The position numbers were made by a program, and so were the translations under genes. From Pocillopora verrucosa (Eukaryota; Cnidaria; Anthozoa; Scleractinia; Pocilloporidae), in NCBI RefSeq assembly GCF_036669915.1, contig NC_089325.1, positions 12,853,735 through 12,917,734 on the forward strand: a stretch of DNA of 64,000 nucleotides, written 5' to 3'. Shown here in pieces: positions 33,901 through 64,000 of the stretch. The first letter of the stretch is position 1. Every line of letters begins with the position of its first letter. Under the pieces are notes generated by a model, which was not told where the DNA came from, did not search any database, and saw only the letters and a list, made by a program, of their open reading frames with translations.

Positions 33901-36576
33901 ATCAACATCCTTCTGATCTGAAAAATTGTCATTTTCAGCAGCAAACTCCTCCGTCAAAATGGTATCATTTCTAACATTATCATCTTCACTTAGACCACCA
34001 TCTGAATCCTCTTGATTCTCCATTTCTGGATCATCTTTAGGGGAATCACTCTGAAAATCATCATCACTACCTGAATTAACAAGATCCAAGTCACTCTCAT
34101 TATCTCCTGACTCGTGGTATGACTTCTCACTCAGGTCAATTTCTTCATAATCTGTACTTGATGAGGAGAAGCTGTCCTGTCTTTCAAGAGCAACTATCTG
34201 CAAATCACATTTTTCTTCGCCTGCTAGACTTACATGTCGCGTATCTCCCACATCTGCTGAAGCTGATTGTCGTTTCCCATAAGAATTCTGCAAATATAAC
34301 ATTTTTTCTTAGTAGGGGTAGTTCAGTGTATTGAGTACTAATGCAACAATGATGTACTAGCAAAGGTTATTATGTGCTATTAACCATTTACACCCTAGCA
34401 TCAACATCTTAATCCTCCATACTCTTCTTCATATGATTCATTTGGTACTAACAAGGATAACAATCAAAGCTTCTTAGGTTGGTAATCATTTCCTTTTATT
34501 CACAGGTTCTTAATGAAAGACTGCGTTAGGAGAAATTAGATACCAATCACTTTTAAGGTTTAAAGGGTTAACATGTTTTATTATGCAGTAAGACTAGTGA
34601 TACTACTTCTGTATGTCTACTCATTGACATGAGTGCTGTTACCTTGCAGAATGACTGTGCCAGGAAATAAATATTATACTGGCAAATAATTCATTTCATT
34701 ATATGTCTCAGTTAGCATGTGAGCTATGATTGGTCAATTTAGTGGGCCGTATTTTGCTGTACAGCCCACTAAATTGAAAAGTTTATTTCAATTGAAATCT
34801 TCTCCCTGTAATTGAACTTAGGGATAAAATAAATATCTTATTACCTTTTTTTTCTCAGTAAGTATTGTAAGTTACAGAACCTTATGTCTGTTTTGCTCAG
34901 TCAATAACATACAGTTTGAAGCTGAATTTGCTTAAAAACAGGCATTTATATGGACAGTAATAAAAGAGCAAGTTTGTCGTTGATGTGACAAGTAAACAGA
35001 TTTGCAGGAAGTTTGCTGATGAGCTGATAACGCATCTATAAATTTGAAATTAGCAGTCCTTTTCTCACCTTTGTGCCCAGGCTCTTTAAGGCAGCCAGCC
35101 GCAATGTTTCCAGATCATCAAAGTCCTCAACATCATCATCATCTTCATCAATGCTTTTGACAATCCTTCTGTTGGGCTACAATAGTAAAAAGACATCCAA
35201 GTCAGAACAGAGGTTCTATATTTCCCTTACACTGCAACTCTCATCTACAAGAGTTTTGCAAGTTTAACCTTACACACCTTACCAACAGTATGCATATTCT
35301 CCATACCATTCCTATACATTTCCTATAGTGCTGACAAGGAGAATATGATAAACAATCAAGAGGCCTCTTTAATTGGTGATCATTTCCTTCATTCTCCTGA
35401 CTGCAAATGTTTGACTCAGGAGTGATAATATACAGAAAAAATCAATGCTGGTCACTCTAGAGGGTCAAATAAAAGGTTTGACAGAAACTTTCATGGAAAA
35501 ATACCCCTTTTAAAACATTTTTTCGAGTTATGGTTTCTTTTTAAGTATAACTGAGCTAATCAAAACTATAACAAAATTCTTGAATGTGATTGGTCATCAC
35601 CAGCCTGATTTGAGCATTAATAGGACAGAGTACACATCATGCTTGTAATTGGACAGTGTAATAGGACAGTTAAAGGGACAGTTAACACGTCATGCCTATG
35701 TAAGTGGACAGAACGTGTCATGAGCATGCGCTGTTGTCCCACATTTTGCTAAGTTAACAGTTGATTTTTTAAGAAAGTGTACAACTGATTTCTAGTTTCT
35801 TTCTCAAATTTTGTCATAGTTTTGATTAATTGGTTACAGTTCTTTGTGTTGTCCAATTCTGTCTGTAATCATACTTGTGACTAACAAATTGGACTCCCAC
35901 TTCGTGGTCATCCGATTTTGTTTAGCACTCATATGATTACAGACCGAATTGGACTCTACTCGGTCCTAATACCATTATTAATCTCAGCGGCTCCACTTAA
36001 GCTTAGACTGGTAGCAATAAAATGGTTTAATTTCACCCTGTCTTAATTGTTGACTACTGTGAAGACAATTTAAAAACTTTTCACTAGAAAAAGGAAAAGT
36101 AACACGCGCTGCAGCGCATAATACTCCTACATCCTCCGGTTACATTTCTTTCCCCTGTCGGTTTTACCTTGTACTATTACACGGCAGTATAAACAAGCGG
36201 CCTAATTTTAAAATTAAGATAATGAATTTGATTAGAAATTGCAATAAAAAATCTGTGGTATAAAGGATTCAAGTAGCGTACCCGACCTAATTTATCGCGT
36301 TGGAAATGCAACACTTAACAAACAAATGGAATAAACGACAAGCATCTAGATACCGCGAAACAAAAACTTCAAACCGAATTTGCACCAGACACGCACGGAA
36401 GACTTTACCTCAAATTCTTTTGAGACTGCAACCCTGTAAAGGTCTCGTCTGAAAACGTCGTACTCATTCTACGAGTAAAAGCATAAGTGAGGATTTAATT
36501 TAGAAAAGGGTCAATCAAACAAAGTCACTAAGGACGACAGTCGTTTTCTGCCAAATACCTGCTCCAAGGCGTCCAT
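30982..36576 (-). CDS. RS-rich nuclear protein with acidic N-terminal region
   Basis: Four exons: 36,559-36,576 (MDALEQ), 35,069-35,176, 32,127-34,287 and 30,982-31,196. All junction phases agree, giving 833 residues. Exon 2 is acidic and ends in a helical segment (DLETLRLAALKSLGTK). Residues about 70-240 are dominated by Asp, Glu and Ser. Residues 429-498 are five tandem 14-residue units. Residues about 550-670 form an arginine/serine-rich domain (RSRDRKHERISRD, SDSRTRSRRTRK). The last exon is a basic predicted coiled coil ending RAKEVQAEKKKFSS. RS domains and acidic tracts are typical of splicing or mRNA-export factors, so a nuclear RNA-processing role is likely, but I cannot name the family. 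Coding assignment is strong from the 2.1-kb open exon and consistent splicing. Confidence 0.8.
31495..31715 (+). repeat. MITE family M2, copy in the last intron of the RS-rich gene
   Basis: Starts TTAACCCTTTAACTCCCATG and ends GGGAGTTGAAGGGCTAA. Shares GGGGATAATTAGTTGATCCA with the copy at 48,892. It carries a small internal tandem repeat of ACAATATCAAT units. Confidence 0.85.
32920..33129 (-). repeat. Coding 42-bp tandem repeat, five units
   Basis: Five consecutive units inside exon 3 of the RS-rich gene encode SLENKAKTSGNKAI, SLESKATACSAKDA, THENKATACSENDT, NHENKATTFSEKAI and IHESKAKMCNDMET. The reading frame is kept through all five. Confidence 0.9.
34379..34572 (-). repeat. MITE family M3, inverted copy
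   Basis: Starts TTAACCATTTACACCCTAGC and ends TTTAAAGGGTTAAC, with internal GGTAATCATTTCCTTTTATT; the reverse complement of M3. Lies in intron 2 of the RS-rich gene. Confidence 0.7.
34734..34777. repeat. Perfect 14-bp inverted repeat
   Basis: TCAATTTAGTGGGC (34,734-34,747) and GCCCACTAAATTGA (34,764-34,777) are exact inverses separated by 16 bases. Intronic; probably the tip of a fold-back element. Confidence 0.85.
35264..35468 (-). repeat. MITE family M3, inverted copy
   Basis: Contains AGTATGCATATTCTCCATAC and GGTGATCATTTCCTTCATTC, the reverse complement of M3 core sequence. In intron 1 of the RS-rich gene. Confidence 0.75.
35557..35830. repeat. Fold-back MITE
   Basis: TAATCAAAACTATAACAAAA at 35,558 is matched by the inverse TTTTGTCATAGTTTTGATTA ending near 35,828, with one mismatch. 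The element is about 274 bases. Confidence 0.7.
35851..35954. repeat. Nested palindromic element
   Basis: GTCCAATTCTGTCTGTAATC at 35,851 is answered by GATTACAGACCGAATTGGAC ending at 35,954, with one mismatch. It directly follows the preceding fold-back element. Confidence 0.75.
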
Positions 36577-39368: not shown

Positions 39369-42300
39369 TTATATGTCGTACTCTTCTACAATCGGAACGG
39401 CGAATGCACATTCTGTTTCGATGCCCAGGTTGTAGTCTCCCCGGCATCCACCTTGGTAACTGGATGTTACGATTCTAAACCAGCCTCTCTCTCCCCAGGG
39501 CACGCCCCAGGAATTGCGCACAATCCAGTATTCTGTACCATTTTCAACACCCCAGCCAGCGACTGACACACAGTGGTTTAACTTTAGGAATTTATTGTAT
39601 TCTTTGTAGATTCCTCCTTGATACTTATTTTCAAAGGTTTTAGTCGCCATGATAGCACAGGAAATAGGGCCCCGAGCGTAAATTTCGGCCTTCATCTCCT
39701 CACGTCCTCTTACAAAGCCTACAACAGCATTGGGAGAATTTTGTACGGAGAGGATGTGTTATTATCACGTTAAAAGTTATCAAATATGTTAATTACTTTA
39801 TAAAAAAACTGAGATATTACAGGCGCCTCCCTGATTGGTCAAAATCTATCGTTTATTGAACTGGTTAACCCACAGAAATTGAAACATTTTAAGTTTATTT
39901 TATAAAAGCAATAGTTTGCACTTTCTATCTTAATTTGAAACGTTTGCCAGAGCCGCGTAATTTACAAACGTTTTTCGTGTTCTCCCGACATCCCACGTAG
40001 GTTATTACACCGGTACACCGATAGAAAGTGAGGTCATTTGCTTAATTATCGGTCACCTTCAAATCATCCACTTACCGTATTCACTGACTCTCCACAAGGT
40101 GTAGTTTTTTATAGCATAGCATTTTTGAGGGGTACAGGTTCCACACTGATTGAATGGCGTGCATATCTGGTCTTTGGCTTGATAATTGTTACACGTTTCA
40201 TCTGGTATACCATGTTCATGAGCGTAACGATACACACTCAGTGAACCACCACCTCTGCAGCTGCCAGCTTTCCCTGTTGTATCATTATTTTTTAATTCAT
40301 TGTTAATAAAGCAACCGTCAAAGTGGTGGAAATAATCCGAAATTGTTTCGGTTTTGGTTTCGAGCACTTTTCTATTATGGGTGCCATAGAGCCAAAGCCA
40401 AATTGTTGACATGGACCAATCAGAAGAAAGGAAAATACCTATAAGAGCCAATCAGAACTCAAAAGAAAACAAGCAAATTGCTTAAAGAGCGGGAAAACGC
40501 GGGCGACCAAGTTGTGTTTTGTTTTAGCTAGTTTGCATCTCATTGATTGAAAGGATAGTGCGAATTTTATGGACTAATCGCAGAGCGAGGTACAGCAAAA
40601 CCAAAGGAATGCCAAATTACTTTTTAAGCTCAATTGAAAATTTCATTAATTTGCCATGAAATTGATGCAGAAAACTAATGCCTTTTTGTGAACCAACCAG
40701 ATTCCGAGTAAACCAATCACGGCCTCTCACTCGTGTTTTCGCACACTTAAATCAGTTTGCTTGCTTGTTTGTTTGTTTGTTTTTTTTTAGTTCTCATTGA
40801 CTGTAAGTGATATATTCCTTTTGATTTGCTGTTGTGATTACTTCGGATTTGGTTTTGCGACACTAACCAGAAAATTATTCTAACAAGTGGAGTGGAAGAG
40901 GAGGTGAGTGATACTTTCCATTCACTTCCGAACGAGCCAATCAGCTCGCGCGAAAAGTACTATTCACTTGAGTGGTGTATATTAATGCCACATAGTATAC
41001 ACTTAAACAGTGGAGTAGATCTGGGTACGAGATAGCGTATGAGGCGCGCTCTGGTTGGCCACCCATACTTTGAATATCCTTCGCTATTCACCTCTGAGCG
41101 ACTCACGTAGGATTTGCGCCCGAAAACGTTGTAGTCGTTGCAGGAATAAATGAGTTAAAATAATCTTTTAGCTATATTATGCCACTGTTTTAGTATATAC
41201 TAGAACAACTATTCACCTCAGTGTCGGTGGCAGGTGGTGGATATTTACCTCGCAGATTCGCGCCTCTATAAACATCCACCACGAGCCACCTCCACTCCAG
41301 TGAATGGTCGTTAACTATCGAGGGGTGTCACTTTCTTAATTCTGATTGGCTAAATTTTCAAGCATGCATTTGAGTCTAAGCAGCATAGTTCTATAAAAAA
41401 ATAATAAAAAAAATAATATAATAATGATGTACTTGCACAAAAAGATACAAAAAGTGAAAATCAAATCAACAAACAAAATAAAATATGACCAGAAAATAAA
41501 CTGCTATGTGGTTATCATACAAATTTTTTTTAGACCCAAATTAGTCGCGTACTCAGACCTTCTACGGCCAAGCGGTTATGAGGATCCAACATTTTAATTA
41601 CAGTTAAACGGTAGGATCTGGGTATGAGATTAGGCCCACATATTGACCACAACTTGCTTACCGCAATCTATGACATTCTGGACTGACAGGAGGTTACTTG
41701 GCCACTTTCCCTTACGCAGGATGTTGATTCTGTCTGATATTGAACTGGTTGATCCAAAAGCCCAACAGGAGCCACAATATTGGGGACTGTGTTGATTCCG
41801 TGTCACACTGGCCAGGTTACCTTTCCCGGGAATGTCTCTCAAATCCCACTGTTTTGGAATTGAATCGGCAGTAAGGTACTCATGCGGCCGGGGAGTCTTG
41901 CTGGTAAAATAAAAAACAGAACCCATTTTGATTGACGTTTGTAGGACCGAGACTAGCAACGCAACCATTCAACACGCAACGACCATTCAGAGAGGGGAAA
42001 CTATCACGAAGGGAAAACTGGAACGCAAAGTATGAACGAGCAAACTGCCTAAAGGGTGGTATGAAGCGTGTAACCAATTTTTGAAAAATCTGAGTGGCCA
42101 GAAGTGCACACCCTCAAAATCGCGTAACGTACTTTGATGCACTTGACGACTTTTTCTCACCGATCGCGGCGCATGTGATCGCCAACGAAATCGCCGATAT
42201 CTTGTATGCCAGATATTGGAGATTTTATACGCCGATCGCGGCGATTGGCGAATATCGCAATCGCTGCACCGAGTACACCTGACGATTTCGGCGATCGACG

Positions 42301-44432: not shown

Positions 44433-47400
44433 TTATCCACTGCAGCTTAAGCAATCAGGATTGTCCCGAGAGCACGCCAAGACTTCTGTGTTCTCCTTTT
44501 TGGTTTTAGCTGTCTTCTTGAGGGTTTCTTGATCAACTGTAAACTGGATTGCATTAGCAGCAGGGCGTGAACGCAAGTAGTACATTCCAGTCTTCAGGCC
44601 CTGCAAGATGTAACAAGCAGCCCATTATTCATTGGGTCATATTAAAGACACCTACTAAAGTCACTCTAGCTATGTTATCATGCTGTGTTCCATTTTTATT
44701 TCAAATCCTTTAACTCTGAATATAAATTCTTCCCTCATGCTGCTACACATTTCCATGTCAATTGGTAACAAGAATTTTCAGTTAGGTTGATAGAACAACT
44801 TCTATTGTATAACCTAGAGTTCTCTTATCACCTGTTTGCTGGATAATATATGGATATTATGAAAAGTTACATGTTTATCAGTAATGGGAGTTAAAAGTTA
44901 AGAGACAACCCTCAAAATTTTTCTCTCCATGAGGGAATATTTAAATAAAACTGCCAAATTGTCAAGGGGTTGACTCGTCTCTCTATACTGCTCTGTAATA
45001 TACTCTTAATCCTCCCCCCTCACTGGCAATTAATTGGCAATCATTTTTCTATACTATATTAGAGACAACTGTTCCCCCCAAAATCCATGCAGCCCCCCAC
45101 CCCCCACCCCCAGGTGACAAATAATGGCTGGCTCCTTATTTAACAATTAGGAGCCCCTATGATTAGGTAGAAGCCGTCTAAATGCACCAAGCAAAGTCTG
45201 CTAGAAGAAAACACATTGAAAGCCAGTTCAATTAGCATTCTATCCAAGAGGCTTCCAGGAGTTACAACACTCCATGCTGATGAAATCAAGAGAAGCTAGG
45301 CTCACAAGAATCTATCATTCACCTAACTCAACAAAATATTCATGCTCTGGAAAATGAACAAAAACTAATCACTTTAATATGGCACATGTCTAATGTGACA
45401 ACACCATTCATAAAAAAAACATTTACCTTTTTCCAGCCATAAAAATGCATGCTTGTTAGCTTGCCATAACTGGGTTCAGCAAAGAACACATTGAAGGACT
45501 GGCTCTGGTCAATGAAAGCTCCTCTGTCTGCTGCCATGTCCACAAGAGTTCTCTGAGAAATTTCCCAAACTGTCTTGTACAAAGGCTTTAAGTCATCAGG
45601 GATCTCATCAATGTGCTGTAGTGAAGAACAAAGGACACCTTTTTACTTTGTGTCATAAAATTCTTTGATTACTCCAAAGAAAATAAGTAAATCGATTAAA
45701 TAATGAGTGGACAATCTGACTTTGTTTGTGGCTTGTATATGCAGTTTAAAAACTGCACATATCAAATGCAAGGTTTTTAATAAGAAATGTAGTTGCAGGA
45801 AAAAAGTATGTAGTAACATGAGACTTTGAAAAAAATAAACGCAGGGCATTGAAATTTGGCCAGAGAATTCTCCAACCTCCACTGCCTAATATACACCTAA
45901 CAACTGTTGATCAAGAAAGCCCATTTGTCGTCATTGGGTACTAAGGAATCAGTCACTCAGTTAGGAATCTTCTTTGTGGAGGTTGTTCATGACCTGTACC
46001 ATTTCACAAATACCTGAATGGATCCATTTGCAGCTATGATTTTGTGCTTCAAAGTCTCATTCCAGAGTCCTCTTTCAGTCAAGTCCTTCAACAGATGATG
46101 GTTTACAATCTACAAGATAAAAAGACATTAACTGCAATGAGCCTTTATTTTCACTACCAATACTGTATACAGTGTTCTCCTTTTCAGGCAGTAACCGGTA
46201 ACATTTACCGCCCGTAGTATTGTAGTACCATTTAAAACTGCTTGGAAATCTTGTAAAAGGATTGCTTTACTGGTTTGAAAATTTATTTACCTGTCATGCT
46301 TAAAATAAGGGAGAATACTGTGTATATCATTGTTTTTCTACAACAATCAAGAATGTACCTGAAACTCTCCTGAGAGAACGCGTCGAGTGTAGATGTTACT
46401 CGTGTAAGGCTCAAAAGACTCATTGTTGCCAAGGATCTGTGCAGTGGAAGCTGTTGGCATTGGTGCAATCAACAAACTATTCCTTAATCCATACCTAAAT
46501 AAACAACAAAAAGTAATAATCCATCAAGTTGTCAAATGGAATGTTCTTATCAAATTATATGATTAACAGACACCCTGTTATAGAAAATGTTGTTGTTCAT
46601 TATGGTTTTTCAGATAAGTGAAATGTTAAATACTTTGTCTCCCAGTGTGGAGTCAGGCTATCAAATGCATTAAGGGGGTAAGTTTGTCAAAAAACTGCAG
46701 TGCTGTGTTGGTGGGAGAGTATAACAGGTAATTAAGTGTTAACAACTGAGTTGAAAACATAAATTGACCACCATAGAGAGTTTAAAGGCTGTCGTATCAA
46801 GTGTTAGCCCTTTGTCAGAGTGGTTGCTGAGGGTTAGCACTCAAAATGTCAGCCTTTAAACTCTTAAAAGTGGTCAATTTACATTTTCAACTCAGTTGTT
46901 AACACTAAAATTACCTATCAAATGTATTGATCATGGTGTTTTGACTGCTACACTGATAGTCTTAGTCAGGCAACAAAACTTTAAGAATTAAAGGATTTTG
47001 ACAGCCATATTTCATTAACTAAAAAAATGAAAATCTTACTTTTTTATTTCTGCCTTGAGAGCTGCCCAATCCCAGAAATCAGATGGAGTGACATTCCAAA
47101 GATCATACTGAAGTTTCTTTAGAAGTGAAAAAGATTAAAAATGTTAACCCCTTAACTCCCATGAGTGACCAAGACAGAATTTCCCCTCACAATATTAAAA
47201 CAAAACCAGGTAGACAAGAGATGAGAACAAAGAAAAATACAAACTAGGCAAATATGAGTTGATCTAATATCAAGTTCTCGTAAAATAACATCATCAGAAA
47301 TGTATAGCACAAGGTAAGGAGAATTACAAATGAAATCTTGGGAGTGGAAGGGTTAATAAGTGAAGGAAGTCAGAGTGGGTGCCTTTATCCCTTATTCCCC

Positions 47401-50400
47401 AAAAGTGATAAGCATCTAATTTCTCCTCGCAGTTTCACCCCTGAATCAAATATTAAGGTCTTGAGAAAAAAAGAAAATGGTGACCAACTAAAGAAGTTCT
47501 GGGTTTTTAACCCTTTAACTCCCAGAAGTGATCAACATGTGTCTTCTCCCTATTATATCCATACATTGACCAGCAAATAGGTAATGAGAATGCTCAAACT
47601 TATCAGGTTAAAGTTATCTTGATCTAACACTAAATTCTTGTAGCTATTACACACGGAAATGTGTAGCAGCTAGAGGGGAGATTTAACAATCAGATCCTTG
47701 GGAGTTAAAGGGTTAAACAAATTTTCATCCCTCTTCATTCTCAGTAGTGACTTGTTACTTTGGTACATCTCTGTCAATGTTTCCACATTGACATGGTGGC
47801 CAAGTTCAATTTCTCAAAAAGTCACCTTTTGGCAACCTTTAATTGTAAAATGGTTGCTGTAAAAAAAATTTTGGTCACCCTTTGATAATTTTACCAAGGA
47901 TCAATAAATGTTTTCATGTTTTTTTTTTTTAAATCTTTTGGTCACCAATTGGTGCCTTTGGTCAAAATTTTACTTGCCATGGCAACCAAATTGGTTGCAA
48001 CTTGGGGTGTTGATATTAGATGTACAATTCACTTAAAAAATTATCCTTATTTTTCACCTCTTGATATGGTGAATCTTTACTTTTTGATAACAATCTCTTA
48101 TCACCACCTAATACAAGATGCAATGAAGTCTAAAGAACATCTTTACCCCTTGGCTTGCAGGTGACCCTTGGTAAGTCTCATACGTCCCTTTTTCTTTAGC
48201 CAGTTTGCAGGAAGCCTGTAATAGAGTAAAAAAGTATTAGATATTCATCATCTCCTTATGAATGCTGAACAACTAAATCTATAGATGAAAGCAAAGTAGT
48301 TATTCTTTAACAATTGGACTACCAATACATGGTTTTCAAGTCCCAACTCAGAGTATGAAGACAAAAGAGAAAAGTTTGGTTTGGGGAACATTCAGTTTTT
48401 TCCTTGCAGAGCTTCTTTTGACTAGCCTTGTGACTCTCAAACAATGCATGTCCAAAATAACCTCATAAACCTATAAATGAAAAGCACTTACTGTCAGAGC
48501 CCCATAGTAGATTGTCTCAAATATTTTCCTGTTCATATCTCTGGCCTCTTCACTTTCAAATGGATATCTCATTAGAATGAAGGCATCAGCCAATCCCTGA
48601 AAGAAAAGTAAAGAATTAATCAGCAATGAAATTTTTTTACTCACACAGTGAGCCTCTGGTGGAATTGTACTTTAAGAAAATTGTGGTGAGTCACCCAAAA
48701 ATTAAAACACTATTTTTACCTGAACTCCGATACCAATGGGCCTGTGTCTCTTGTTGGATTTTTCAGCCTGGAAATTCAAACAAAAAAAAAAGAAAAAGTT
48801 AAGTGAGTAAATGCCACAATTTAATGGAAATGATGTAAATAAAAGTTGGCAAAGTAATAATACACCATCTGGAGCAGGAATTTGCATTAGATTAACCCTT
48901 TAACTCTCATGAGTGACCAAGACAGAATTTTTCCTTACAGTATCAATACAACATCAACCAGATAAGTGGTGAGAATCAAGAAAAATATCAATTTGGGGAT
49001 AATTAGTTGATCCAATCCTACATTCTCTGAACTAACATTACAATTATTGTATGACCAACGGTTAGGAGAATTACAAATTCGATGTGGGAGTTTAAGGATT
49101 AAAAGAACAAAATGTAACAAAAACTGACTCTAAACAAAACTTAATGCAAAAAGACTGAACAAAAGAATTTGAGCACAGCAAAATTTCTTACCCTCTGAGT
49201 AACATAACAGCCCATAGACAAAAAGGTGAGATACATATATATATATATATATCAATATAAAACAGACAAACAAAGAATGAAACAAAATAAGATGCCTCTT
49301 AAACACAAACCTCCTTCACTGGGTAATAGTTGATGTCAATAATCTTGTTCAAGTTGCGTGTTACCACCTAAAAATTTTATACAGGAAATTAACAAGGAGT
49401 AAATTATTTTATATTGACACAGTGATCATTTTCCTAATCTATGTACTAACCTGGGTAACCTCAAAAAGTTTTTGGAAATTGTATGTGGGTCGGCCCCCTC
49501 CATTGGTTACAACAAACTTGTTAAGTGCCAGAGATGCTAAGTTACAGACAGCAACCTGAGAGATGAATGGAAAGATACTTTGTTGCTTAATAATATGCAA
49601 GGTTCTTATGAGGATTTATTTAGACTTTCTTTCTCAAGGATTCACTCACACCAGTATGCCATCACTTCATTTTAATGATAACATTTCATGCAGTTATAAG
49701 CATGTTTGGATGTGTGTCAATCATCACAAAGTTTCCATGACAGTCAAATAGGAATGCCTCCTGATGCCTTCTGAAGAGAACACTGGAGCAAAACTTTTTT
49801 TTTCAAACAAGAGGTACAGTATTGTGCAAAAGTAATACAAACAAAATACAGCAAATTTCAGTTTTTGCTCTATCAAATTAACATTTTGTTTGAACAAAGA
49901 ACGCTTTTTTTGCTGAATTTTCTTCACAAGGCAAAAATTTATGGCAGAAAGTGTCCTTTTGATCAATAGTGTTTGTAATTTCATTTTGAACTGTCAATAG
50001 ACCTCCCAAAGTGATTAAGTTTGTTTACCATTCCTGTAATGAACATGAAATATTTCCAAACTTTTTCAGTCCCCAAGACACAGTATGAGAATGACTGTTT
50101 ATACTTGAGACCAAACACAAGAGACAAAAGAACAAAACAAGGATTTACTCAATGTTAATGTAAAAGCTCACCTCATCTGGAGAGCTGTACTCAACAATTT
50201 CAGTGCACAGATTGCTGCATTTGATTGTTCCAACATTCTGGAAGGAAATGCAGTTTGATTAAAAAAAATGGTACAATTTGTTTTCAATATCAGTACATTA
50301 TGATAGTTATATCTAGTACCAGGTAGATAAGGATAAATGAATAAAGGGGGTAGGTTTCTAAAGAAACTGTGGTGTTGCACCAGTGGAAGAGTATAACAAG

Positions 50401-53400
50401 GTAGTTTAGTATCATCGACTGAGTTGACAACTAAATTGGCCACTGTAAAAGACTTTTAAAATTGCCATTTCAAGTGTTAGCCCTTTGTCAGAACAAAGTG
50501 TCGTGAGTCAAGAATAAATAAATAAGGAACCTTTTTATCCCTAAAACTGACTGGCATGTAATTTTTTTCATTGCATAACCCCTCAATCACTCATTAAGGT
50601 CATGCAAATAATGGAACTGATCTCAAACTAAAGAAGCTCTTGATTGTTAAACAAATTCTCCTTGTCAGCACCTTAGGAAATGTATAGAGAACAGTATGGA
50701 GAATATGCATACTGATGTTTGGGTGTAAAGGGTCAACCCACTTGAGTACCTGCTGATTACTTTTCCTGTTGCATGCATCTTTGTACAGCATGTAAGGTGT
50801 GCCTGTCTCAATCTGTGATTGACAGATTGCCTGCCAAAGATTCTGTGCTTTGACTTGTCTCCGAAACTTTCCTTGTTCCTCATACCTATTTACAAAGAGG
50901 GTTAAAAGGAAGAAATAAACATGATCTGTACTGATAGTATTTGGTGCCAAACCATTCAACTTTTGGAATGTTTGGCCCTTTCCTAACAGGTGCCTATTTT
51001 TATGAAATTTCATTGTTTGGGTTTGGGCTCCAAGGGAGTTTGCAGGGCAATTGCCACATGCTTTTGCTCAATGTGGCAGCTCCTTTCCTCTCTCCCTTTC
51101 AGATTTTTGGTTAGTACTCATTCCATACAGCGCTTTGTCAGTGTTATGTTGATGTATTCCTGGAGGTAGGTTGTGACACAGTTGCCATGGTTCCTTCTTG
51201 CAACATTTCTGCCCCTTCCTGATGCTACCCTCATGGTTCCAACCCACCATTAATATTTCAAATTAGAGTTTTACTGGTTGTGTCCTATGGCTGCTTAAAA
51301 AGAATAATCCCTAGTTAAATTTGAGTTCTTTTTCTTGGTTTTCAGGAGGGGATTCCCACCCGGGCAAATTCTTGGTTTATGGCCAGATGTTTTATGAACT
51401 GACATACAGAGAAAATTATGGCCTGCCAGGCTGATAAGTGAATCTAATCTTTTATACAAAATGAGTGCACCCTGCTTCTAACACATACCTGACATAGAGC
51501 TCTTCAAATTTCTCACCCCAACAGTCCTGTAATCCAGGACACTCATTAGGACACATTAGTGACCACATCTCATCCTTCTCAACACGCCTCATGAACAAGT
51601 CAGGGATCCACAATGCAAAAAAAAGATCACGAGCACGCTAGGGAATCAAAGATAACCATTTAGCATGAAGTGCCTAATACATCTTTCCTTCCTAGGGGTG
51701 ACTCTTTGAAAATCTTGGTATAAGGTTCATACCCTTTTACAGAAACAAATCCCAGGGACTAAAACTCTTTCATTCCTAAGATTTCAAAATCAGTTCTCCT
51801 TACAGTCTACATACATTTCTTGTAAAGTAAATTATGAAAACTTTCTTGCTTAAGTTGAGCAGATTTCCAGGTCTTTCCAGTTCTGGAAAATGTCAAAATA
51901 AAATTCCAGGACTTTTCAGGTTTTCCAGGACCCATACAAACCCTGTTGTTAACTTTAAAGACCCAAAATAATATTTTCAAATCTAATCCTAAGGAAATAT
52001 AGTCCAGGTGTTCACTCCAAAACCTCTATATTTGTTTCCTTTTGAGATATATCATTCTATAAATTTCATTACTGTAACCTTGAATGAAATACAATAGAGA
52101 AACACAACCCTTTCATCCACCTATGCAGTGAAGACTGTACATCTATTAAACTTGGTTACAACAACCCTAAATCTGCTTGAAATTTCTCAATGTCACACAG
52201 AGAACTCAGTTCACCTCCACAATAATTTTGAGCTAAACAGAAAATTAATTATAAAAATCATCCAATTTTTTTTTACCTGCTCCTCTTTGCCAGTGTTCTT
52301 TCTCAGTTCCAAGAAATCATAAACATCGCTGTGCCAAGGCTCCAGATATATGGCAAAGGCACCAGGCCTCTTGTTGCCTCCTTGATCTACATACCTGGCT
52401 GTGGCATTGTACACACGCAACATTGGAACAAGACCATTTGAGACTCCATTGGTCTAGTAAGAAAGGAAATAAATATTGGCAAATCCCTCCAACAAAAGTT
52501 TTGATAATTTCACAGCACGGAAAAGGGCTTTTCATTGTATTTTATCAGTGTCAAAATCACATTTAGTTATCCCTATGGCCAGTCAGAACAATGGTACTAT
52601 ATTTATTGTATTATTAATTTTCCAACCTTGAATAAGCACCCACCCTGAGTAAGGTCTGCTAAGTTTTAAAACATATCCACACATTAAAGGCATCACAATG
52701 AGAATCTAGAGCTGTAGAAGGCCTGCTCTTTAGAATTTGATGATAATAACTTACTGGCCATGCTAGAATTGTTCCTAATAACCCACTCTGTATGAAAGCA
52801 TGCATTGCAGGACAAAAAGCATGAACAACAGTTCGCAATACTCCTCTGATAACAGCAATGATATGTTTACCATCTTCAGGGTGATTTCTTACCCCAGCAA
52901 TGTAGCTTCCAGAAGCCCGGATGTTATGCACGTTGATTCCAATTCCACCTGCAGCCTTGGATATCTTAGCACAAAGTGTCAGTGTGTCATAAATACCATC
53001 AATGCTGTCATCTGTCATGGTCACAAGAAAACAACTGGACAGTTGAGGTTTACATGTACCAGCGTTGAACAGGGTCGGTGATGCATGCGTAAACCACTTC
53101 TCTGATAACAGTTTGTATGTTTCAATTGCTGCTTCAATGTCAGTCTGATGAATTCCAAGTGCAACTCTCATCAACATGTGCTGTGGTCGTTCAGCAACTT
53201 TGCCATTGATTTTGAGCAGGTAAGACCTCATCATTGTCTGGAAAGAGTCATTTTGAAGATTTTAAACCTGATTGAGTAGGAAAGAATGGTTTAACTTCAC
53301 TTGGACAAGAAGAGTCCACACACATACCTTAACACCAAAGTAGTTGTATTGGTAGTCACGATCATAAATGATCTCCGAGTCAATTCTCTGAGAAAGAAAA

Positions 53401-56400
53401 AAAAGAGGCAAAAATTGAGGATTTTAGTTTTAATCTCAGGGTTTAAATATTGGTAAACAAAACAAGATTGCTTATATTTTCGGGAATGCCTCTAAGGCAA
53501 TAAAAGTTTAGTACCCTGAAGTCACAATCACAGGTTTTCTTTCAACTGTTTTACACCTTTTCCTGATGAAATAACATTCCCTTAAAAGCAACATGCGTGA
53601 TTGTACCCATGTGCAGTGTCAATCAAAACTCAACTACGTTTGGGCCCAGTCTCTGATAATATTATTTTCACTCTGATTAGTGAACGAACTGGCAAATTAT
53701 CATATTTATTAAGCAACATTGCCTTGATAATATATTGATCTAACCAAGGAGAGCTCTGATATGACTTCAAATTCTCACAAACAGGCGGCAAAGATATTAA
53801 ATAACACAGGTTACACAAATTAGGTCTTATTCTAAAAGTGAATCATTTGAACAAACAGGGTTGTCTAAAAGGTTCTCGCATCTGTTGCAAAACTCTCTAA
53901 AATTCAAATCCACCCAACTGTTCTAATAATAGTCACAGATAACCCCAATACAAATATTCCATATTATATTGTTATAACTCAAACTGGCTGCATTCTAGAA
54001 AATATTAAATTAACATATCAGATATAAACTATGCAACCACAATTACTTGGCTTTCAAGATGTAAATTAGCCAAAGTAAAGAGTTCCATAAGCTGACATTC
54101 CCAGTGCTACCCCCTTTGTCAGAACAAAGGTATCTATTTGCTTTAATGAAGGACTAGGTGTCAGTTCTAATAATTAGGGTAATGGTGTTCTAACATAGAT
54201 AACAAGCTTGTGCTTGGTTTATAAACTTACATCGGCATTCTCCATTATGAGGTCATAAGTTTCCTTGGAGATCAGCGGAGAATGTTTACCATTCTTTGGG
54301 TTGACATAGTTATAGAGATCTGTCATTACCTCTATGGGAAAAAATTATTTAATACAAGAAAATAAGAGAAGGATGCACAACCATGCAAAATGAATCCATT
54401 TGTAATGTGACCTTTAAGTATGATTCAGGGATGATACTGTGACAAAAAGTTAGGGGCTACTCACTCATAAGGGTATACGGTTGAATGCAAAACAATTTCT
54501 AAAATGTCTTTCACTTGTTTTGGGGACTAAAATTGATTATAGGTGGAAATCTGTGGTCAAAGAGATTTCTTGGTTTCCATACTACAGTACTTGCCAGATC
54601 TTGTAGGAATAAAGGTGAGTTTAAGAGGTAGGGCAGAGTAGAGAGGTAAGACACAAGACACCTACCACTAAAAATCTTCTTCGTTTCTTTGTGAAGATTA
54701 GAAACCTCAATCCTGGCTGCAAGGACAGCATAGTCAGGATGTATGGTTGTCATGGAGGCAGCAATCTCAGCAGCAAGTATATCCAGCTGAGTTGTGGCTA
54801 CACCAGGGTAGATGCCATCAATTACCTTCTTGACAATCTCAAACTGAATCATGCAAAAGAAAATCAAGTTGTAACCCTTAACTCCCAGGTGATAAACATG
54901 TAATTTCTTCCCATAATATCCATACATTATTCAACAGATACTAGACTTGTCAGTTTAAATGTTATCTTGATCTCACACCAAATTCTTTCAACTAATTGAC
55001 AAGGAAATGTGTAGCAACTTGATGATAGAAATTTTTATCAGATCTTGGGAGTTAAAGGATTGAGGGTAAACTGAATGGTTACTGCAATATCTGAGAGACA
55101 ATCTGCAACTTGGTGCCCAGATTTTGTACTGTTGCTTATAGCAAACATAGTCCGAGTTCTTCAGGCCCTGTCATTTGGACCAAAATGGACAAATCTATCC
55201 AATTATCGGAACCATTGGACACAAGCACATCAAAATGGTTTATTTCACGAGCCTAATGGACTACTGACCCTCGATTTTAATGCACGACTCGTTGATAATT
55301 TTATATATTTTTCAATACTTACACATTTACATATATCTCATATTTTCAGTACTTATTAGATATTTAATTGTGGTCAAGTGTCCCTAATTAGCGCACATAA
55401 GTTCTTATCTTATTCTCGTTAGTATTAATAGTGTGACGTGCCTCATAAATACATGATAATTTTACACACATGCTTAATAACAACCCAAGTACATATATTT
55501 GTTTCATTATTACACTGACTGCACAATAGCTTTCCATAGCAGTGTACGTGTAGAGTTAAAAGTACACTCTACAATCTATTATCAGCGCGTTTCTTGATTT
55601 TCTTTGAAACGCATGTGGTTTGCATTTCGCGCTATCCTCGATGACGTATCAACTATCCTTTCAAAAATCTTAAAACTAGTAGCCCATCTTAGCAGACTGT
55701 GCCTACAAATGTTCAGTAGTACTTAATGCACAACCAGTTTAGGCTAAAATTGTTTCCAATAGCAAATTATGAATATCGTGAGTTTTTCCGAGAACAATAT
55801 AAATTTCGTACCAACGCCATTCGCGATACAAATTGGTAAATCCATGTTAAAAATGGAGGAAATAGGAATAAATATGTAAACTACGATCACTGTACGGATT
55901 TCTGACGAGCTTATACAGCGTAGCTTTTGTTGTGGAAGAGTGTACGGTACAGAGGCAGTTGTAAATTGCGCGCCAAGATCTTTGAAATTGACCTGAAGAC
56001 GACAAGGAAAATGGTATACAAAGGGGTTCCACGAATTTAACTAGTCCTTAATATGTAATTTCATCGAAGAAACATACGCATTTGCCATTAATCTAACGAT
56101 AAATGGTAGATTTCGTTTTGCCTTTTGGCGCCAAAAGATAAGTCATTGTCCAATTCGGTTAGTGGATCGTTCACTGATTTGCACGCAGAGGTAATCTTAC
56201 CATGTCGACAAAATCAGAGAGCTCATAACCAAGCTTTTTAATCCTGGCAGTGACTTTGTTCAGATTGATTTCCTCCTCTTTTCCATCTGAAAGAGAAAGA
56301 CCAATTAAAGTAACATGTACATGAACAAGATGGCGGTCAATATCAGCGCAGTTCGCATAAGGAAAAACAAAAATCTTACTTCGTTTGAGGACGTAAGAGG

Positions 56401-57755: not shown

Positions 57756-60700
57756 ATACTAATTTTTTTCATGTTTTTTTTTTCAGGCGCGCGAAGCGAG
57801 AATCGTTCTCTTCGCGTTTTTCCTCCCGCGGTCGCACCTGCGCTCATCTGAAAAAGATGAAAAAATTTGATAATAATAAAATAGAGCGCAAAAGATAAAT
57901 TAAAATTATTGAAAACGGTGACCCGTGTTCTGCAAGCCAGAGGTAAAGTATGTAAATGAGAAGCCTATTAAATCAAGACATCACTGTTAACTGGTTTTTT
58001 TTATGTTCCGCCATCTGTAAACTTGTATGTTCCACCATCTGCAAACAGTGTCTTTACGCAAGTGCACGAAACAAGTGCACGATTTTGGGAAGTAACAAAA
58101 AGGTTAGGGAAAAACTGTTTTCGATTTCTGGAAAATCGGATAACAACACCCATAGTTGAAAAACTGGCCTTAAAATTCACGTGTAATTGCCTCGTGACCG
58201 AATAAACTTCAGCCGCATTATCCCTGACTTTGGTCCGATGAAAGTCTTCCTAAATAATTGATCAAGTGAAACATATTTTGATCATAAAATTACACCAGTG
58301 CTATACGGTCGACACCAAAAAGAGTAAATTATTTTTGGGCAACTTTTCCAAGAAGTTTCGCCCAGCGCACCCAAAAAATCTCTTACTGAAGTCGACTGAA
58401 TTATGGCCAAGAAAGAGGCCCTCATTTGGCATGAAAATAAATTTAAATCTTTTTTCATGGACATTATCTAATCATTGAAGCGAACAACATGTCATGATCC
58501 TCCTCGAGCTTTGCTTAGCAAAAAACTGTTCTCTTCTCGGATCTTATAAGCTCTAACAATGTCCATAATCAATTAAGGAAGTAGGCATATCTACGCACCC
58601 AACAGAGGCTGATGTTTTTATAAAGTTCCCGAAATGCTTCTTTTCGTGGATATATGCAGAAATCAATCACAGGCCGCGTGCAGCCTAACTGTCGATAACA
58701 AAGTCGTACGTGTGGAGCTCCCCTGCAGAAAAATAATGCACGCAACTCGCCTACGATTTTTAAATGAGCTGGACTTCTAAATCGTTGTCTGTTTTTTGTT
58801 TATACTCTCATTCATTTTGTCCGGGAATATTGGAAGCTGTGATAATCAATCATACGACAGAACCCCAGCCCTTTGATTTCCATACCGGTTCGAAAGGCAG
58901 GAGCTTTTGTCTTGAGATTTACCACGCGGATTTTGACTCCCTTGAGTTTTCTGTTCTGCGAAGAAAAAAAATATAGTCGAGAGTTTTCGAGAATGATGTA
59001 GGAAAAAACACAGAGGTTTTTTTTTTTTATCGTTTTCCTGTTATCATGTTTAGGATATTTTGATCGGTTAAAAGTGCATATCAGTTCGATTTATATCTAA
59101 GGAGTCATGCAAAGCTGTATACAGATTCAGAGAAACTCCAACATAGACATCGGATTACTAATTGATGACCGGTTGGCGTTTTTCAATAACTAATGAAAAA
59201 AGATCATGCCTCTTAGCCTAGGCTTAAAAGGGAAAAATGTAATTGTAGAATAGAGGGGATAGGAAACAAACACGTAGATAGAGCCCAAGGTACTCTATCT
59301 AATTGCACTTTCTGAAAATTTTCGCCAATTAACTTACCAAAGCCATTTAATGTACAGAATATTTTGTTATCTTGCTTAAAGGCCAAAGGGAAGAAAGATG
59401 TTTGCATAGAAAACACCATTTATTCAAAAAACGAATATGGTAATATGTTTTGCTGCGCAACAACACTAATATTTACACGTTGAAACTTGAACGATATGAG
59501 CGACTCAGTGTTTCTTTCTTTGAAAGAGGCCGAATTTCCAATCATCAAAGAAAAAAATATTTCCATTGTGGCTGAAATTGGTACAAAGTTTCTCCCACTC
59601 GCTTAAAGACAAATTTGTCAGTTCTTTTTGGAGCTGATGACGTAGTAATGAGAAATGTCAGTAACCTAAACGATTTCAAGTGTTTTCCATTTTCTGTTTT
59701 TTCCTTAAAATTTGTGGTGTAATTCTCGCCCACGTAAATTTATGCAAATTTTTCAGTAAGCTGTGAAGTCGCAATTTCCTTCGGAGAGAATCACTAATTT
59801 GCTTTTAGCGAGGACTGCGCTTTGTAATGGAGCCATTTATGTTAAAAAGCAAACAATAGGCAAGCAGTAAGAAATGTGGGACTTCAGTAAAATGAAAAGG
59901 AAGATCGCGAAACTCTTATGAAGATCGCTGCGGTAATTTACCAAAAATGAGGAAACTCAATATTAAATTTCAGACTAACATTTTAAAATAATTTCTCATT
60001 TCGGCATAATTTTCACGTCAATCACAGATCTAGGCTAATATTTTCACTTGTTTTCCTTAGTGGCATTAAAAATTTGAGATTTTAGAGTTTCAGTCAGCTG
60101 GAAGGTCTGAACGAAAACTTGATCGATCTGAACATAGTCAAGTACTTTGCAGACAATAACCAAGTGTAACTCTATGGAGTATAAAAGTGATGCGTATTTG
60201 AATTCAATTGGAAGACAGCTCGTTCGTTTGTTACTCGGACAATTGAGCCCTATGCGAATTTGCGAAACTCGATCGCACTTAGTACCGACAACACCTGCTG
60301 TTTGAATTTTGTTTACCGAGCGAAGACTGTAAGACTAACATTTACGACATAATTTAGCATTTCTCCCCCGAGTACGAAAGGTTTAATTAAAATGTGGCTC
60401 ATTTAGGAGGTGTCAGAGTTTACTGTTGAAATTAAACAATTAATGATATTTTCTCGTTCAGATGCACCTTGCGAAGTCAGAGTTTACGTTAAAAAACCTT
60501 TTAGGGTTACGGTTAATTGTTCAAATAAAATCTATCGAGCCAGATCTGTCACGATTGAGCGCTAACTATATTTTTCGTCGTTTTTGACGTAAAAGTGATC
60601 TTAATGGTTCAAGTGAACTCCATTTATTTAAGCGCTTTGAGTCAGTGGCTTGCAGCCCATTGGTGGATTTAACTCGCATCCGGCTGCCATCGACTGAAGA

Positions 60701-61016
60701 AAAACATTGAGACCAAAAATAGGCTCCCCTGCTAATTTATGCACTAAAAGTCTCAGTTATTGTAGTCGACGTCATTTTCAATGCCCCTTCCGTCAGTTGC
60801 TCTGTTTCCAGTCTCAAAACATCAATCATTAGCTGAAGCGCGCCATGGATAGGCAATTTCCTGCGATGTTTGCTGTTTAGATATCATTCCAAGTCGATAC
60901 TCGACAGAAACACAGTGTAGCGGTAACAAGGTGTCGCTTTTGCACGAGTTTACAACTGTTTACAAACTTCAACGCTATTCTCGCGGTTCAAATTACCGTT
61001 GCTTGGAGGTGTCTTT
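57756..61016. other. Intergenic and upstream region of the YDL-motif gene
   Basis: No exon was recognised. A near-duplicate of 24 bases (ATGTTCCGCCATCTGTAAAC and ATGTTCCACCATCTGCAAAC) sits at about 58,003-58,050. A TATA box lies at 60,180. Small frames such as 58,764-58,976 and 59,545-59,733 show no known motif. Confidence 0.4.
60180..60187 (+). promoter_or_regulatory. TATA box upstream of the YDL-motif gene
   Basis: TATAAAAG, a strong match, about 840 bases before the ATG at 61,017. Transcription from about 60,210 would give either a long 5' UTR or one containing an intron. Link to this gene is inference. Confidence 0.4.
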
Positions 61017-64000
61017 ATGGCTTTCGCGTTTGGAGATTCTTACTTGAAGCTTCCACCAATAAGCCAAGAAGGTTCCGTTGAAATCGACGGCGAAGACTCC
61101 AAGAGAAATGTGGGGATCGTCCGCGATAAACATGGCCTTGTGCGACTTCCTCCTATCGTGCGATTGGATTCACTTCGCTCCACATCAACCGCTCAAAGGT
61201 TTCGGAACGAAACGCCAACCGCAGTTTCAAGCGAAAAGACCGAAGTTGCGATGTCAAGATCACCAATGAAAATAACAGACAAACTGGGGAGCTTGAGACT
61301 CCAAGGACGTTCGAAAAAACTAAAAAAATACGACAACAAGAGCGAGGATGAAATGAAATTAATTATGGAAGCAGCTGTCAAGGAAACCAATGAAGACGAA
61401 ACAAGTTTTTTCGACAGCGAAAATGTTTCACACGAAAAAGAGAGGGCAGGTTGCCAACGGTTAGGTTGTAGCTCCGCTTTGTTATCATTGACTGGCAATG
61501 GAGAACTTCTCCCTGCACACAAAGATTCAATCTTGTCCCGCCGGGGAAGCAGCACTTTTCAACCTACGAAGAAATTGACGAGATCGCGCAGGCTGGCAAA
61601 ATCTTCGCCCGAGTTATCTAATAGAAAGAAAAATATGCGGCTGCTCGCCGACGGAAATATCAGCGAGCATTCGTTATCTTCTCTCGCAGCAGGTTCTATG
61701 CCGGTTGTCCGATCCGACCCCTCAAGCCGTCCACAGCTCGCGGTTCAGGACATCGACGGATCAAAGCTCTCTCAAGTACAGAATTATGCTAAGATTGAGG
61801 AAAAAGCAAAAGAGTACGGCGGAAAACGCAGAAATCACAGTAATCAACGGTGGAAGATTGATGTTGCAAATTTACCACAGAGCACCCCGAGTTCACCGGT
61901 TTGCAGTGAATCTGCTAACTCAGAGATCAAGCAAAAAGGTCGAAAGTCATTAAACGATATAACGGACGCGGAGCAGTTTGTTGACAGAAGAAGACCCTCA
62001 TTGAAAAAGCAAAATCTAGTTTATGATGCCGATGTCGATGTATTGAAAATTGAAGGAAAGAGCTGCTCTCAGAGTGAGAGAAAATTGCAAAGAGGAGATG
62101 CTTTGACAGAATGCAATGTCGAAATGTTAGACCTACCGAGAAATGAGGAAAAGAGGCATTCATTGTACGACTTGCAACAAATATTAACCTTGCTGCAGAA
62201 AGAGGATTTAAAGCGACAGGCTTCCAACATAGCTTCATCGTCTCGAAATGCAAGCGCCACCTCTAATGCAAGCGGAAGGGAACCCAGTGAGTCCGTTTAT
62301 GACTTAAGGGAGTTCTTGTTGATGGCGGCGGCCGAAGCTTCGAGCGCAGGGCAACTTAAAAAGACACAAACGAACAAATTAAGCGCCAATAACTCACAGA
62401 CGAGTTCGTCGTCGCATCTCGCACCTCCTGGGAGAGAGAAAGACAGTAGAAAAGGCTCAGTTTACGACTTAATGGAGTTTCTCACTCTTGGAAATAGCAG
62501 TGAAACGGGTTCTGGATCCACTAGTGAAAACTCGAGCCGTTCGACTTCACCGCGAATTTTATCATCACCGCATGCCAGCTCTAGCTCAAATAACTTGCTA
62601 TCCGTCTCAGTTGCCAACAGTGGTGAGGAAAGCAGGAGAGCGTCTACCTACGACCTCATGGAGTTTCTATCTCTGCCGCGTTCTGGGGGTAATTCGCGCC
62701 CTGATTCAGGTCCTAGCAGCCCAGCTCTTCACGAGGAAGGCTCTAGCGCAGCAGAAAGCAAAATGAGCGATTCAGGTACCGAAAAGGTTAAAGAGAAACG
62801 AAGTCTATCTATGTACGATCTGGAAGAATTCCTGTCTATGACATCTGATATACCACCGCTTGTGCGAGTCACACCTTGGGAAGAAGAGCAAAAAACAAAT
62901 AGTAGCGAAACTATTTCGGATTCTGAAGAAGGTGCCAAAAGAGATTTGCAACAGCCGAGAGGGTCAGTGTATGACCTAAGTGAAATCCTGAGCGTGTTAC
63001 AACAGGAAAATGAGAAAAGGCATGAATCTGCGTCTAATTTACGCCAGATGCTGTTTCATTTTCAACGTGAGGCCGAAAAAACTGGTCAATCTTCACTTAC
63101 GCAATCAACTAATTTACCCGCCAAATGTACTGTCGGTTCCTCTCCCGTAACTCCAACTATAGAGAACAGTGGCTACTCGACCGGTAGTGATCAAGCAGCA
63201 TCAACAGACGCACCCAAAAATATGGATGTAACTGAGAACAGTCGGCACATGTCTGTGTATGATCTTAGAGAGTTCCTTTCACTTTATGCCGCTCAACAAA
63301 ACCCGTCGGCAACTCATCAGCAACAGCTTTCATCGGCAGTTTCGTTGAGGCGAAAATTTTCCGGAGTTTCGCAAAGCGGTGTGAGTATACTCGTCACTGA
63401 CGAATCCAACAGAAGCATCGACAGCGAATTTTACGAAGATGTTTTTCTTCCAGTACCAAGTACAGAACCTAGCGGTGCGTCTGATCCATCGCGTAAAAGA
63501 AGCTCTATTTACGATCTCCGCGAGTTCTTGAGCATTTTAAATGCAGACGAATCTCCCTTGAGAAGACGATTATCTAGTGTGTCATCTGCATCGTCTAAAT
63601 CCAGCGAAAGTGAATCAGAATCAAATTCTGCCAAAACTACTGGCCCGTTAAAACCAGCCGGTCCGAGTCATGGCAGGGGAAATTCCTCGAGAACACAACT
63701 GTTCCCACGCCAGGATTCCGGCGGGAGCCTTTCTCTATATGACCTTGGCGAGTTTCTCTCGCTTTTGAACACAGAAGAATCTCCATTGCGAAGAAGGCTT
63801 TCGAGCGTCAACGATAAGATCTCTGCGCAAGGTGAAGAGGGAGCGCGCACGCCGGTTCTTTCCAGAAGCGATTCCGAAAAGGGTCTTTACAGCTTAGAAG
63901 AAATATTAACTGTTATGAATGAGCTTGAGCAAAGGAATAGTAGCGAGAACATGAGTGGAGACATTGAAGGCAATGTTGGAGAAGAAATCAGTATTCAAGT
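61017..64000 (+). CDS. Long Ser-rich protein with ten YDL-EFL motif repeats (3' end outside the window)
   Basis: An uninterrupted frame from ATG 61,017 (MAFAFGDSYLKLPPISQEGS) to the right edge gives at least 994 codons without a stop. The protein is Ser/Glu/Arg-rich and probably disordered. LPPI occurs twice near the start (KLPPIS and RLPPIV). Its hallmark is a short motif, consensus [RK]-x-S-[VIL]-Y-D-L-x-E-F-L-S-L. The motif tyrosines are at residues 384, 428, 483, 545, 600, 652, 748, 832, 908 and 958. Examples are RKGSVYDLMEFLTL, RRASTYDLMEFLSL and KRSSIYDLREFLSI. A degenerate copy without Tyr (ASNLRQMLFHF) lies near residue 671. Basic residues before the Ser resemble PKA-type sites, and the Tyr-Asp-Leu part could be an SH2/PTB ligand or a docking helix. 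I recognise no family. Possibly a scaffold; all function is inference. No splice site is needed, so this may be one giant exon. Confidence 0.8.
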   Translation, partial: MAFAFGDSYLKLPPISQEGSVEIDGEDSKRNVGIVRDKHGLVRLPPIVRLDSLRSTSTAQRFRNETPTAVSSEKTEVAMSRSPMKITDKLGSLRLQGRSKKLKKYDNKSEDEMKLIMEAAVKETNEDETSFFDSENVSHEKERAGCQRLGCSSALLSLTGNGELLPAHKDSILSRRGSSTFQPTKKLTRSRRLAKSSPELSNRKKNMRLLADGNISEHSLSSLAAGSMPVVRSDPSSRPQLAVQDIDGSKLSQVQNYAKIEEKAKEYGGKRRNHSNQRWKIDVANLPQSTPSSPVCSESANSEIKQKGRKSLNDITDAEQFVDRRRPSLKKQNLVYDADVDVLKIEGKSCSQSERKLQRGDALTECNVEMLDLPRNEEKRHSLYDLQQILTLLQKEDLKRQASNIASSSRNASATSNASGREPSESVYDLREFLLMAAAEASSAGQLKKTQTNKLSANNSQTSSSSHLAPPGREKDSRKGSVYDLMEFLTLGNSSETGSGSTSENSSRSTSPRILSSPHASSSSNNLLSVSVANSGEESRRASTYDLMEFLSLPRSGGNSRPDSGPSSPALHEEGSSAAESKMSDSGTEKVKEKRSLSMYDLEEFLSMTSDIPPLVRVTPWEEEQKTNSSETISDSEEGAKRDLQQPRGSVYDLSEILSVLQQENEKRHESASNLRQMLFHFQREAEKTGQSSLTQSTNLPAKCTVGSSPVTPTIENSGYSTGSDQAASTDAPKNMDVTENSRHMSVYDLREFLSLYAAQQNPSATHQQQLSSAVSLRRKFSGVSQSGVSILVTDESNRSIDSEFYEDVFLPVPSTEPSGASDPSRKRSSIYDLREFLSILNADESPLRRRLSSVSSASSKSSESESESNSAKTTGPLKPAGPSHGRGNSSRTQLFPRQDSGGSLSLYDLGEFLSLLNTEESPLRRRLSSVNDKISAQGEEGARTPVLSRSDSEKGLYSLEEILTVMNELEQRNSSENMSGDIEGNVGEEISIQ

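Follow-up and report, generated by a model that had tools for sequence, protein, structure and literature searches.

Paxillin carries, besides its LIM domains, several LD motifs along a disordered chain, each a short acidic-leucine helix, and KNL1 has PP1-binding motifs of two kinds, SILK and RVxF, together with a C-terminal RWD domain. CREB, a bZIP factor, has just one KID, with basic residues ahead of the KID Ser and a ΦxxΦΦ string (Φ, hydrophobic residue) within the helix. In a published account (PMC7292645), KNL1/Spc105 is a long, disordered scaffold in which one short, kinase-gated docking motif has multiplied by duplication into many copies. For KID, another account (PMC5770967) describes a PKA-phosphorylated Ser beside a short helix that is disordered until bound, with phosphorylation lowering the dissociation constant (Kd) for KIX from 29 to 0.11 uM. 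Here we describe a gene at the end of a 64,000-nucleotide stretch (the window; C14:12853735-12917734) of the genome, 353 Mb in 52 contigs, of a probable reef coral. Its product carries ten copies of a short motif with Tyr-Asp-Leu near its start. The protein resembles KNL1/Spc105, as far as that account goes, in being an apparently disordered scaffold with one short motif in many copies, and it resembles paxillin-type LD arrays in the several short acidic-leucine helices predicted along such a chain.

The array is real, as pattern and profile tests confirmed. The pattern [SG]-x-Y-[DS]-L-x-[EQ]-[FI]-L-x-[LMVI], which was derived from the ten copies themselves, matched ten times in the frame, against a mean of 0.005 and a maximum of 1 when the 994 residues encoded within the window were shuffled 20,000 times. 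A profile scan of the whole protein recovered the same ten, with scores of 27.7 to 43.3, whereas the next best stretch scored 0.88 (the 95% maximum from 300 shuffles was 7.5). The copies start 44, 55, 62, 55, 52, 96, 84, 76 and 50 residues apart, in agreement with the initial annotation, which had reported ten motifs spaced by 44 to 96 residues. Degenerate extra copies such as RKSLNDITDAEQF (residue 313) did not score above the null and were rejected.

With the Tyr numbered 0, four columns hold in all ten copies (Y, L at +2, L at +6, and L, M, V or I at +8), and four more hold in nine (S at -2, D at +1, E at +4, and S or T at +7). Position +5 is F in seven copies and I in three, and seven copies have R or K at -5 or -4 (-3 or -2 when counted from the Ser). 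By eye there are two subtypes, EFL in seven copies and xIL in copies 1, 6 and 10, the latter ending in a charged, helical-looking tail. The consensus first proposed, [RK]xS[VIL]YDLxEFLSL, fits no copy exactly, whereas YDLxEFLxL fits four of the ten, YDLxEFL seven and SxYDLxE[FI]L eight.

The protein is encoded by one uninterrupted exon. At least 994 stop-free codons had been reported up to the window's edge, and this was confirmed; however, the protein is not the giant it was taken for. Reading the next contig stretch, which agrees with the window's last 200 bases, added 45 residues past position 64,000 and then a TAG stop at window coordinate 64134-64136, giving 1,039 amino acids in total and closing the frame 73 residues past the core of the last motif copy. 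The frame is open from 60927, after a TAA at 60924, and 61017 is its first ATG; under a model of independent bases with the same composition, so long an open frame has a chance probability of ~1e-26. The GC content at codon positions 1, 2 and 3 is 0.49, 0.47 and 0.42, both flanks being lower (0.35-0.38), and RNY codons (R, purine; Y, pyrimidine) make up 0.298 of the read frame versus 0.181 and 0.237 in the other two. Ten other ATGs lie between a candidate TATAAAA string and the start ATG, so the 5' end is uncertain and there may be an intron in the 5' untranslated region or a different start site. Downstream of the stop, AATAAA occurs at ~1.45 kb and ATTAAA from 0.7 kb. A scan for bacterial promoters and terminators, a method ill-suited to a eukaryotic-type genome, gave no signal above shuffles, and the window yielded no tRNA or Rfam match. 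The N-terminal region, which precedes the array, has a net charge of +13 across residues 1-370.

We compared all 45 pairs of copies codon by codon within the gene, scoring the proportions of nonsynonymous (pN) and synonymous (pS) differences. In the motif core (-2 to +8), pS was 0.93 and pN 0.28 (ratio, 0.30), and at the six key positions (Y, D, L, E, F/I and L) pS was saturated while pN was 0.13 (ratio, 0.10). In contrast, the ratio was 1.02 in the eleven codons upstream of the motif and 0.94 in the eleven downstream. Thus, the motif core is under selection while its flanks drift, which bears out the earlier proposal that the motif is kept as the linkers change, and the signal is unusually clear because copies of one gene are measured against their own flanks. 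Across the copies, Leu at +2 uses all six codons, as does Leu at +6, from which we conclude that the copies are old and that the protein sequence, not the DNA, has been kept. The motif Ser is encoded by TCN in nine of nine cases, against 102 TCN and 62 AGY codons outside the motif (P 0.014), as fits descent from one ancestral copy with the Ser kept. The linkers had been called unrelated, but one of the 45 linker pairs is set apart: the linkers downstream of copies 8 and 9 have ESPLRRRLSSV in common (z 7.8; next values 2.8, 2.6 and 2.4).

The motif Ser tends to lie in a basic context. Arg occurs at -2 or -3 of it in 7 of 10 copies, compared with 37 of 224 Ser/Thr residues (16.5%; binomial P 2.5e-4), and for Arg or Lys together the figure is again 7 of 10, against a background of 25%. 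Strings of the form RxxS/T are frequent throughout the protein (29 versus 16.6 in shuffles). By its sequence, then, the suggestion of a phosphorylatable Ser in a basic setting applies to seven copies. In structural models, AlphaFold run with the ten-copy alignment predicted one helix spanning residues 15-31 of a 32-residue segment around the motif, 15 residues having a predicted local distance difference test (pLDDT) value of at least 90 and the predicted template modelling score (pTM) being 0.40. In the single-sequence model of the 994 residues (pTM 0.26), 829 residues had a pLDDT below 50, and helices were placed at copies 1, 2, 6, 7, 8, 9 and 10, starting at -1 in copies 7 and 9, at 0 in copies 1 and 2, at +2 in copies 6 and 10, and at +3 in copy 8. 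The N-terminal region was likewise of low confidence except for a short helix at residues 110-121. The charge-hydropathy value puts the protein barely on the disordered side (0.411 versus a boundary of 0.416). These models agree with the bead-on-string layout suggested at the outset, with motif copies set along a chain that is mostly of low confidence.

The strict form of the motif is nearly private to this gene. Genome-wide, S-x-Y-D-[LF]-x-E-[FIL]-[LF], the form to which our counts (all lower bounds) refer, had 28 matches with a TCN Ser and 2 with AGY, compared with 1 and 0 for the reversed pattern, and 8 of the 30 are in this gene. Among the 22 outside it, 14 contain an in-frame stop and 6 have Phe for Leu at +2, leaving two candidates, SPYDLLEI and SGYDLCEF. 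A pattern lacking the Ser matched 36 times, 7 of these in the gene, but its reversed counterpart matched 25 times, which makes it uninformative outside the gene. An apparent dispersed element at 14 places in the genome reads S-[L/stop]-YDL-stop-EI and mimics the motif in DNA searches; 11 of these 14 matches were read in their genomic context, and by appearance they are one repeated element. With the 994 residues as query and E up to 1, a protein search of the same genome returned the gene itself and no paralogue.

Database searches gave a similar picture. A Pfam-A scan of the protein, tail included, found no family above its cut-off; lines for SH3-B_UBE2O, WH2 and the PLCG EF-hand (E 0.11-0.25) fell below theirs, and that for WH2 stems from a lone LKKT, which is not part of any motif copy. 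PDB chain sequences gave no match to the protein at E up to 1. The motif profile drew five PDB chains, a coat protein, ANKS3 (where the match reads DLREFLTL), C2HR4_8r and two antibody light chains (E 0.018-9.2), in overlaps of at most 20 profile positions that we take as chance. Relatives were sought in viruses and prokaryotes, collections that have no bearing on animal orthologues: three pattern scans of viral contigs gave 3, 53 and 146 stretches, and one of prokaryotic genome contigs gave 12, none of which was confirmed (by tblastn for the viral ones). In open-access papers, SVYDL was the one string to occur among the motif strings sought, and a search combining motif and coral terms gave nothing relevant by title among the papers listed. 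The statement that no described family has this array therefore holds for Pfam, PDB sequences and the papers searched, and Pfam may simply lack an entry for the family of this protein, which could be conserved among anthozoans or more widely.

Several known ligand classes were considered. The initial annotation had put forward SH2, PTB and 14-3-3 domains as possible readers of the motif, but since the strict form is nearly confined to one gene, a generic ligand of this kind seems unlikely; we would expect many carrier proteins for it. A 14-3-3-style pattern had four matches versus 1.62 in shuffles, none inside a motif copy. Patterns for FFAT, LxxLL, the clathrin box, GoLoco-like motifs, SILK and RVxF had no match, weak negatives because fewer than one match was expected for each. 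As the ligand of a common domain should be found in more genes, a dedicated partner or self-association seems more likely.

We favor, tentatively and with a little less than even confidence, the reading that this mostly disordered, Ser-rich protein serves as a scaffold with multivalent docking through short helices, and that phosphorylation perhaps tunes it. Its one recurrent element is a linear motif of about 15 residues, roughly R-x-x-S-Φ-Y-D-L-x-E-[FI]-L-[ST]-Φ, of which there are ten copies. On binding, the motif would fold into a short helix, beginning at the Ser or immediately after it, that puts L+2, F/I+5, L+6 and the +9 residue on one face, and the ten copies, on flexible linkers, would dock one dedicated partner multivalently. 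In most copies, the basic residues before the Ser might let a PKA/CaMK-type kinase tune the copy, in the manner of the CREB KID, where phosphorylation strengthens a docking helix. More doubtful, though possible, is that the gene-private motif supplies ten kinase-gated helix switches for a single partner or for homotypic assembly, with up to nine Ser residues read as a graded response. The earlier interpretation, a motif selected as a repeated binding or phosphorylation site, is as a whole partly supported.

A number of observations weigh against the docking-scaffold reading. The protein is known here from its sequence and from models, in one genome. The aligned model had copy 1 as its target, a favorable choice given the helical tail of that copy, and the low-confidence model of the 994 residues has no helix at copies 3, 4 and 5. 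The S-x-x-D spelling of the motif suggests that the Ser caps the helix, but this suits two of the seven helices (copies 7 and 9), the other five starting one to four residues later, and the helix of the aligned model also begins too late for it. The hydrophobic moment barely beats shuffles, with only copy 9 of the ten below 0.05, and neither Tyr 0 nor residue +8 is on the main helix face. In copies 2, 9 and 10 there is no Arg or Lys two or three residues ahead of the Ser position, copy 10 has no Ser, and the three basic columns (-5 to -3) are hardly constrained (pN/pS 0.86). The weak constraint on the basic columns and the poor fit of the Ser cap lowered our confidence.

An unlikely alternative is that the motif serves for self-association or for docking within the molecule, its helices packing chain to chain into a condensate or filament. 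The near privacy of the strict motif, which would be odd for the ligand of a widely used domain, points this way, as do hydrophobic residues on more than one helix face and the existence of EFL and xIL subtypes that could pair; the single-chain model is, however, of low confidence, as noted above. It is rather improbable that the array consists of acidic/aromatic activation-domain or KIX-type ΦxxΦΦ motifs through which a nuclear co-regulator would recruit a coactivator. Every copy overlaps a ΦxxΦΦ string (22 matches in the protein versus 10.6 in shuffles), and the order of basic residues, Ser and helix is similar to that in the CREB KID. However, in KID the first hydrophobic residue comes directly after the Ser, whereas here ΦxxΦΦ starts four residues past it; Pfam-A includes a KID model, and no DNA-binding or other domain reached its cut-off. 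Activation motifs are, moreover, loose in sequence, and Y and D are nearly invariant across these copies.

Nine of the ten copies have the register of a CRM1 leucine-rich nuclear export signal (NES), Φ-x2-Φ-x3-Φ-x-Φ, but the general pattern comes cheaply (14 matches versus 7.4 expected in shuffles of the protein). As an NES requires no invariant Y, D or E, and one or two signals suffice, ten copies with invariant Y plus D and E exceed the need, making this reading very unlikely. Least credible to us are two others. If E-F-L-S-L were an LC3-interacting region (LIR; acidic-aromatic-x-x-aliphatic) of an autophagy receptor, the contact of the pattern with copies 3, 4, 7, 8 and 9 (6 matches versus 2.5 in shuffles) would be explained, but Ile replaces the aromatic residue in copies 1, 6 and 10, Met comes last in copies 2 and 5, LIRs bind as strands, and none would need Y-D-L ahead of it. 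A neutral leftover of tandem duplication, similar by descent and with no present function, would account for the linker shared by copies 8 and 9, which makes at least one local duplication visible, and for the TCN Ser codons; yet neutral copies would diverge evenly, whereas here synonymous sites are saturated, key residues are kept and adjacent flanks are unconstrained.

The protein also differs from each of its closest described counterparts. MELT-like strings of the KNL1 type, [MILV][ED][MILV][ST], had 1 match versus 1.26 in shuffles, in no motif copy; neither PP1-binding motif was found, few being expected by chance, and there is no recognizable C-terminal domain, the tail having no Pfam match. 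From the CREB/CREM KID it differs in having ten copies, another spacing from Ser to hydrophobic residues and no Pfam match. The paxillin-type pattern [LV][DE]x[LM][LI]xxL had no match (0.03 expected by chance), and there is no LIM domain. With disordered multivalent motif-array scaffolds in general it shares a selected short motif on drifting, apparently disordered linkers. The motif itself appears undescribed in the sources searched, while the design of the array is of a known kind.

Table 1. Features of the motif-array gene (window coordinates)
Feature	Position	Strand	Remarks
TATAAAA string, candidate core promoter	60180..60186	+	String match only; ~0.84 kb upstream of ATG
Repeat-protein coding frame	61017..64000	+	Starts at ATG; 994 codons inside the window, then on to the stop beyond it
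N-terminal motif-free region	61017..62150	+	~378 residues, Ser-rich; LPPI occurs at residues 12 and 44
Copy 1, SLYDLQQILTL	62160..62192	+	xIL subtype
Copy 2, SVYDLREFLLM	62292..62324	+	
Copy 3, SVYDLMEFLTL	62457..62489	+	
Copy 4, STYDLMEFLSL	62643..62675	+	
Copy 5, SMYDLEEFLSM	62808..62840	+	
Copy 6, SVYDLSEILSV	62964..62996	+	xIL subtype; longest predicted helix
Copy 7, SVYDLREFLSL	63252..63284	+	
Copy 8, SIYDLREFLSI	63504..63536	+	Followed by ESPLRRRLSSV, common to copy 9
Copy 9, SLYDLGEFLSL	63732..63764	+	Followed by ESPLRRRLSSV, common to copy 8
Copy 10, GLYSLEEILTV	63882..63914	+	Lowest profile score; no Ser

The protein also contains a single KKTQT string (window 62358-62372, forward strand, residues 448-452; 1 match versus 0.01 in shuffles), which we take to fit the LC8 dynein light chain motif, so that a scaffold dimer would be possible if the site is real.

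The neighboring exons are eukaryotic in kind. On the forward strand, 9929-11864 holds a PAN domain and fibrinogen/COLFI-type exons, possibly of one secreted lectin-like gene. In 25401-28171, also forward, an exon in which an IRS-type PTB domain ends (PF02174, E 9.8e-6) is followed, ~0.9 kb on, by a 540-amino-acid open stretch, probably a final exon, with seven Y-x-N sites, which we take to be of GRB2-type consensus; the two may form one DOK/FRS/IRS-like docking-protein gene. The reverse strand carries a 728-amino-acid open frame at 32125-34308, acidic and then Arg/Ser-rich, with no Pfam match and containing a 42-bp tandem repeat (4.6 ENKAT-like units, 32943-33135); papain-family protease exons (PF00112), cathepsin Z-like by eye, at 39372-41968; and, at 45343-54930, exons for the all-alpha and barrel parts of a ribonucleotide reductase large subunit, its ATP-cone falling just below cut-off. 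Elsewhere in the genome, a search for GFP-family exons gave 74 matches, all of those listed lying on contig C1 in two clusters (28.36-28.79 Mb and 0.67-0.88 Mb), and none in any of 14 control genomes, which points to an anthozoan and probably to a coral.

Arrays of one motif are a way in which cells build graded, switchable hubs, with KNL1 as the well-studied case. If the docking-scaffold reading is correct, the gene described here would provide a clean system for learning how copy number and phosphorylation together set the output of such an array, and it would give a handle on a signaling hub in a probable reef coral.

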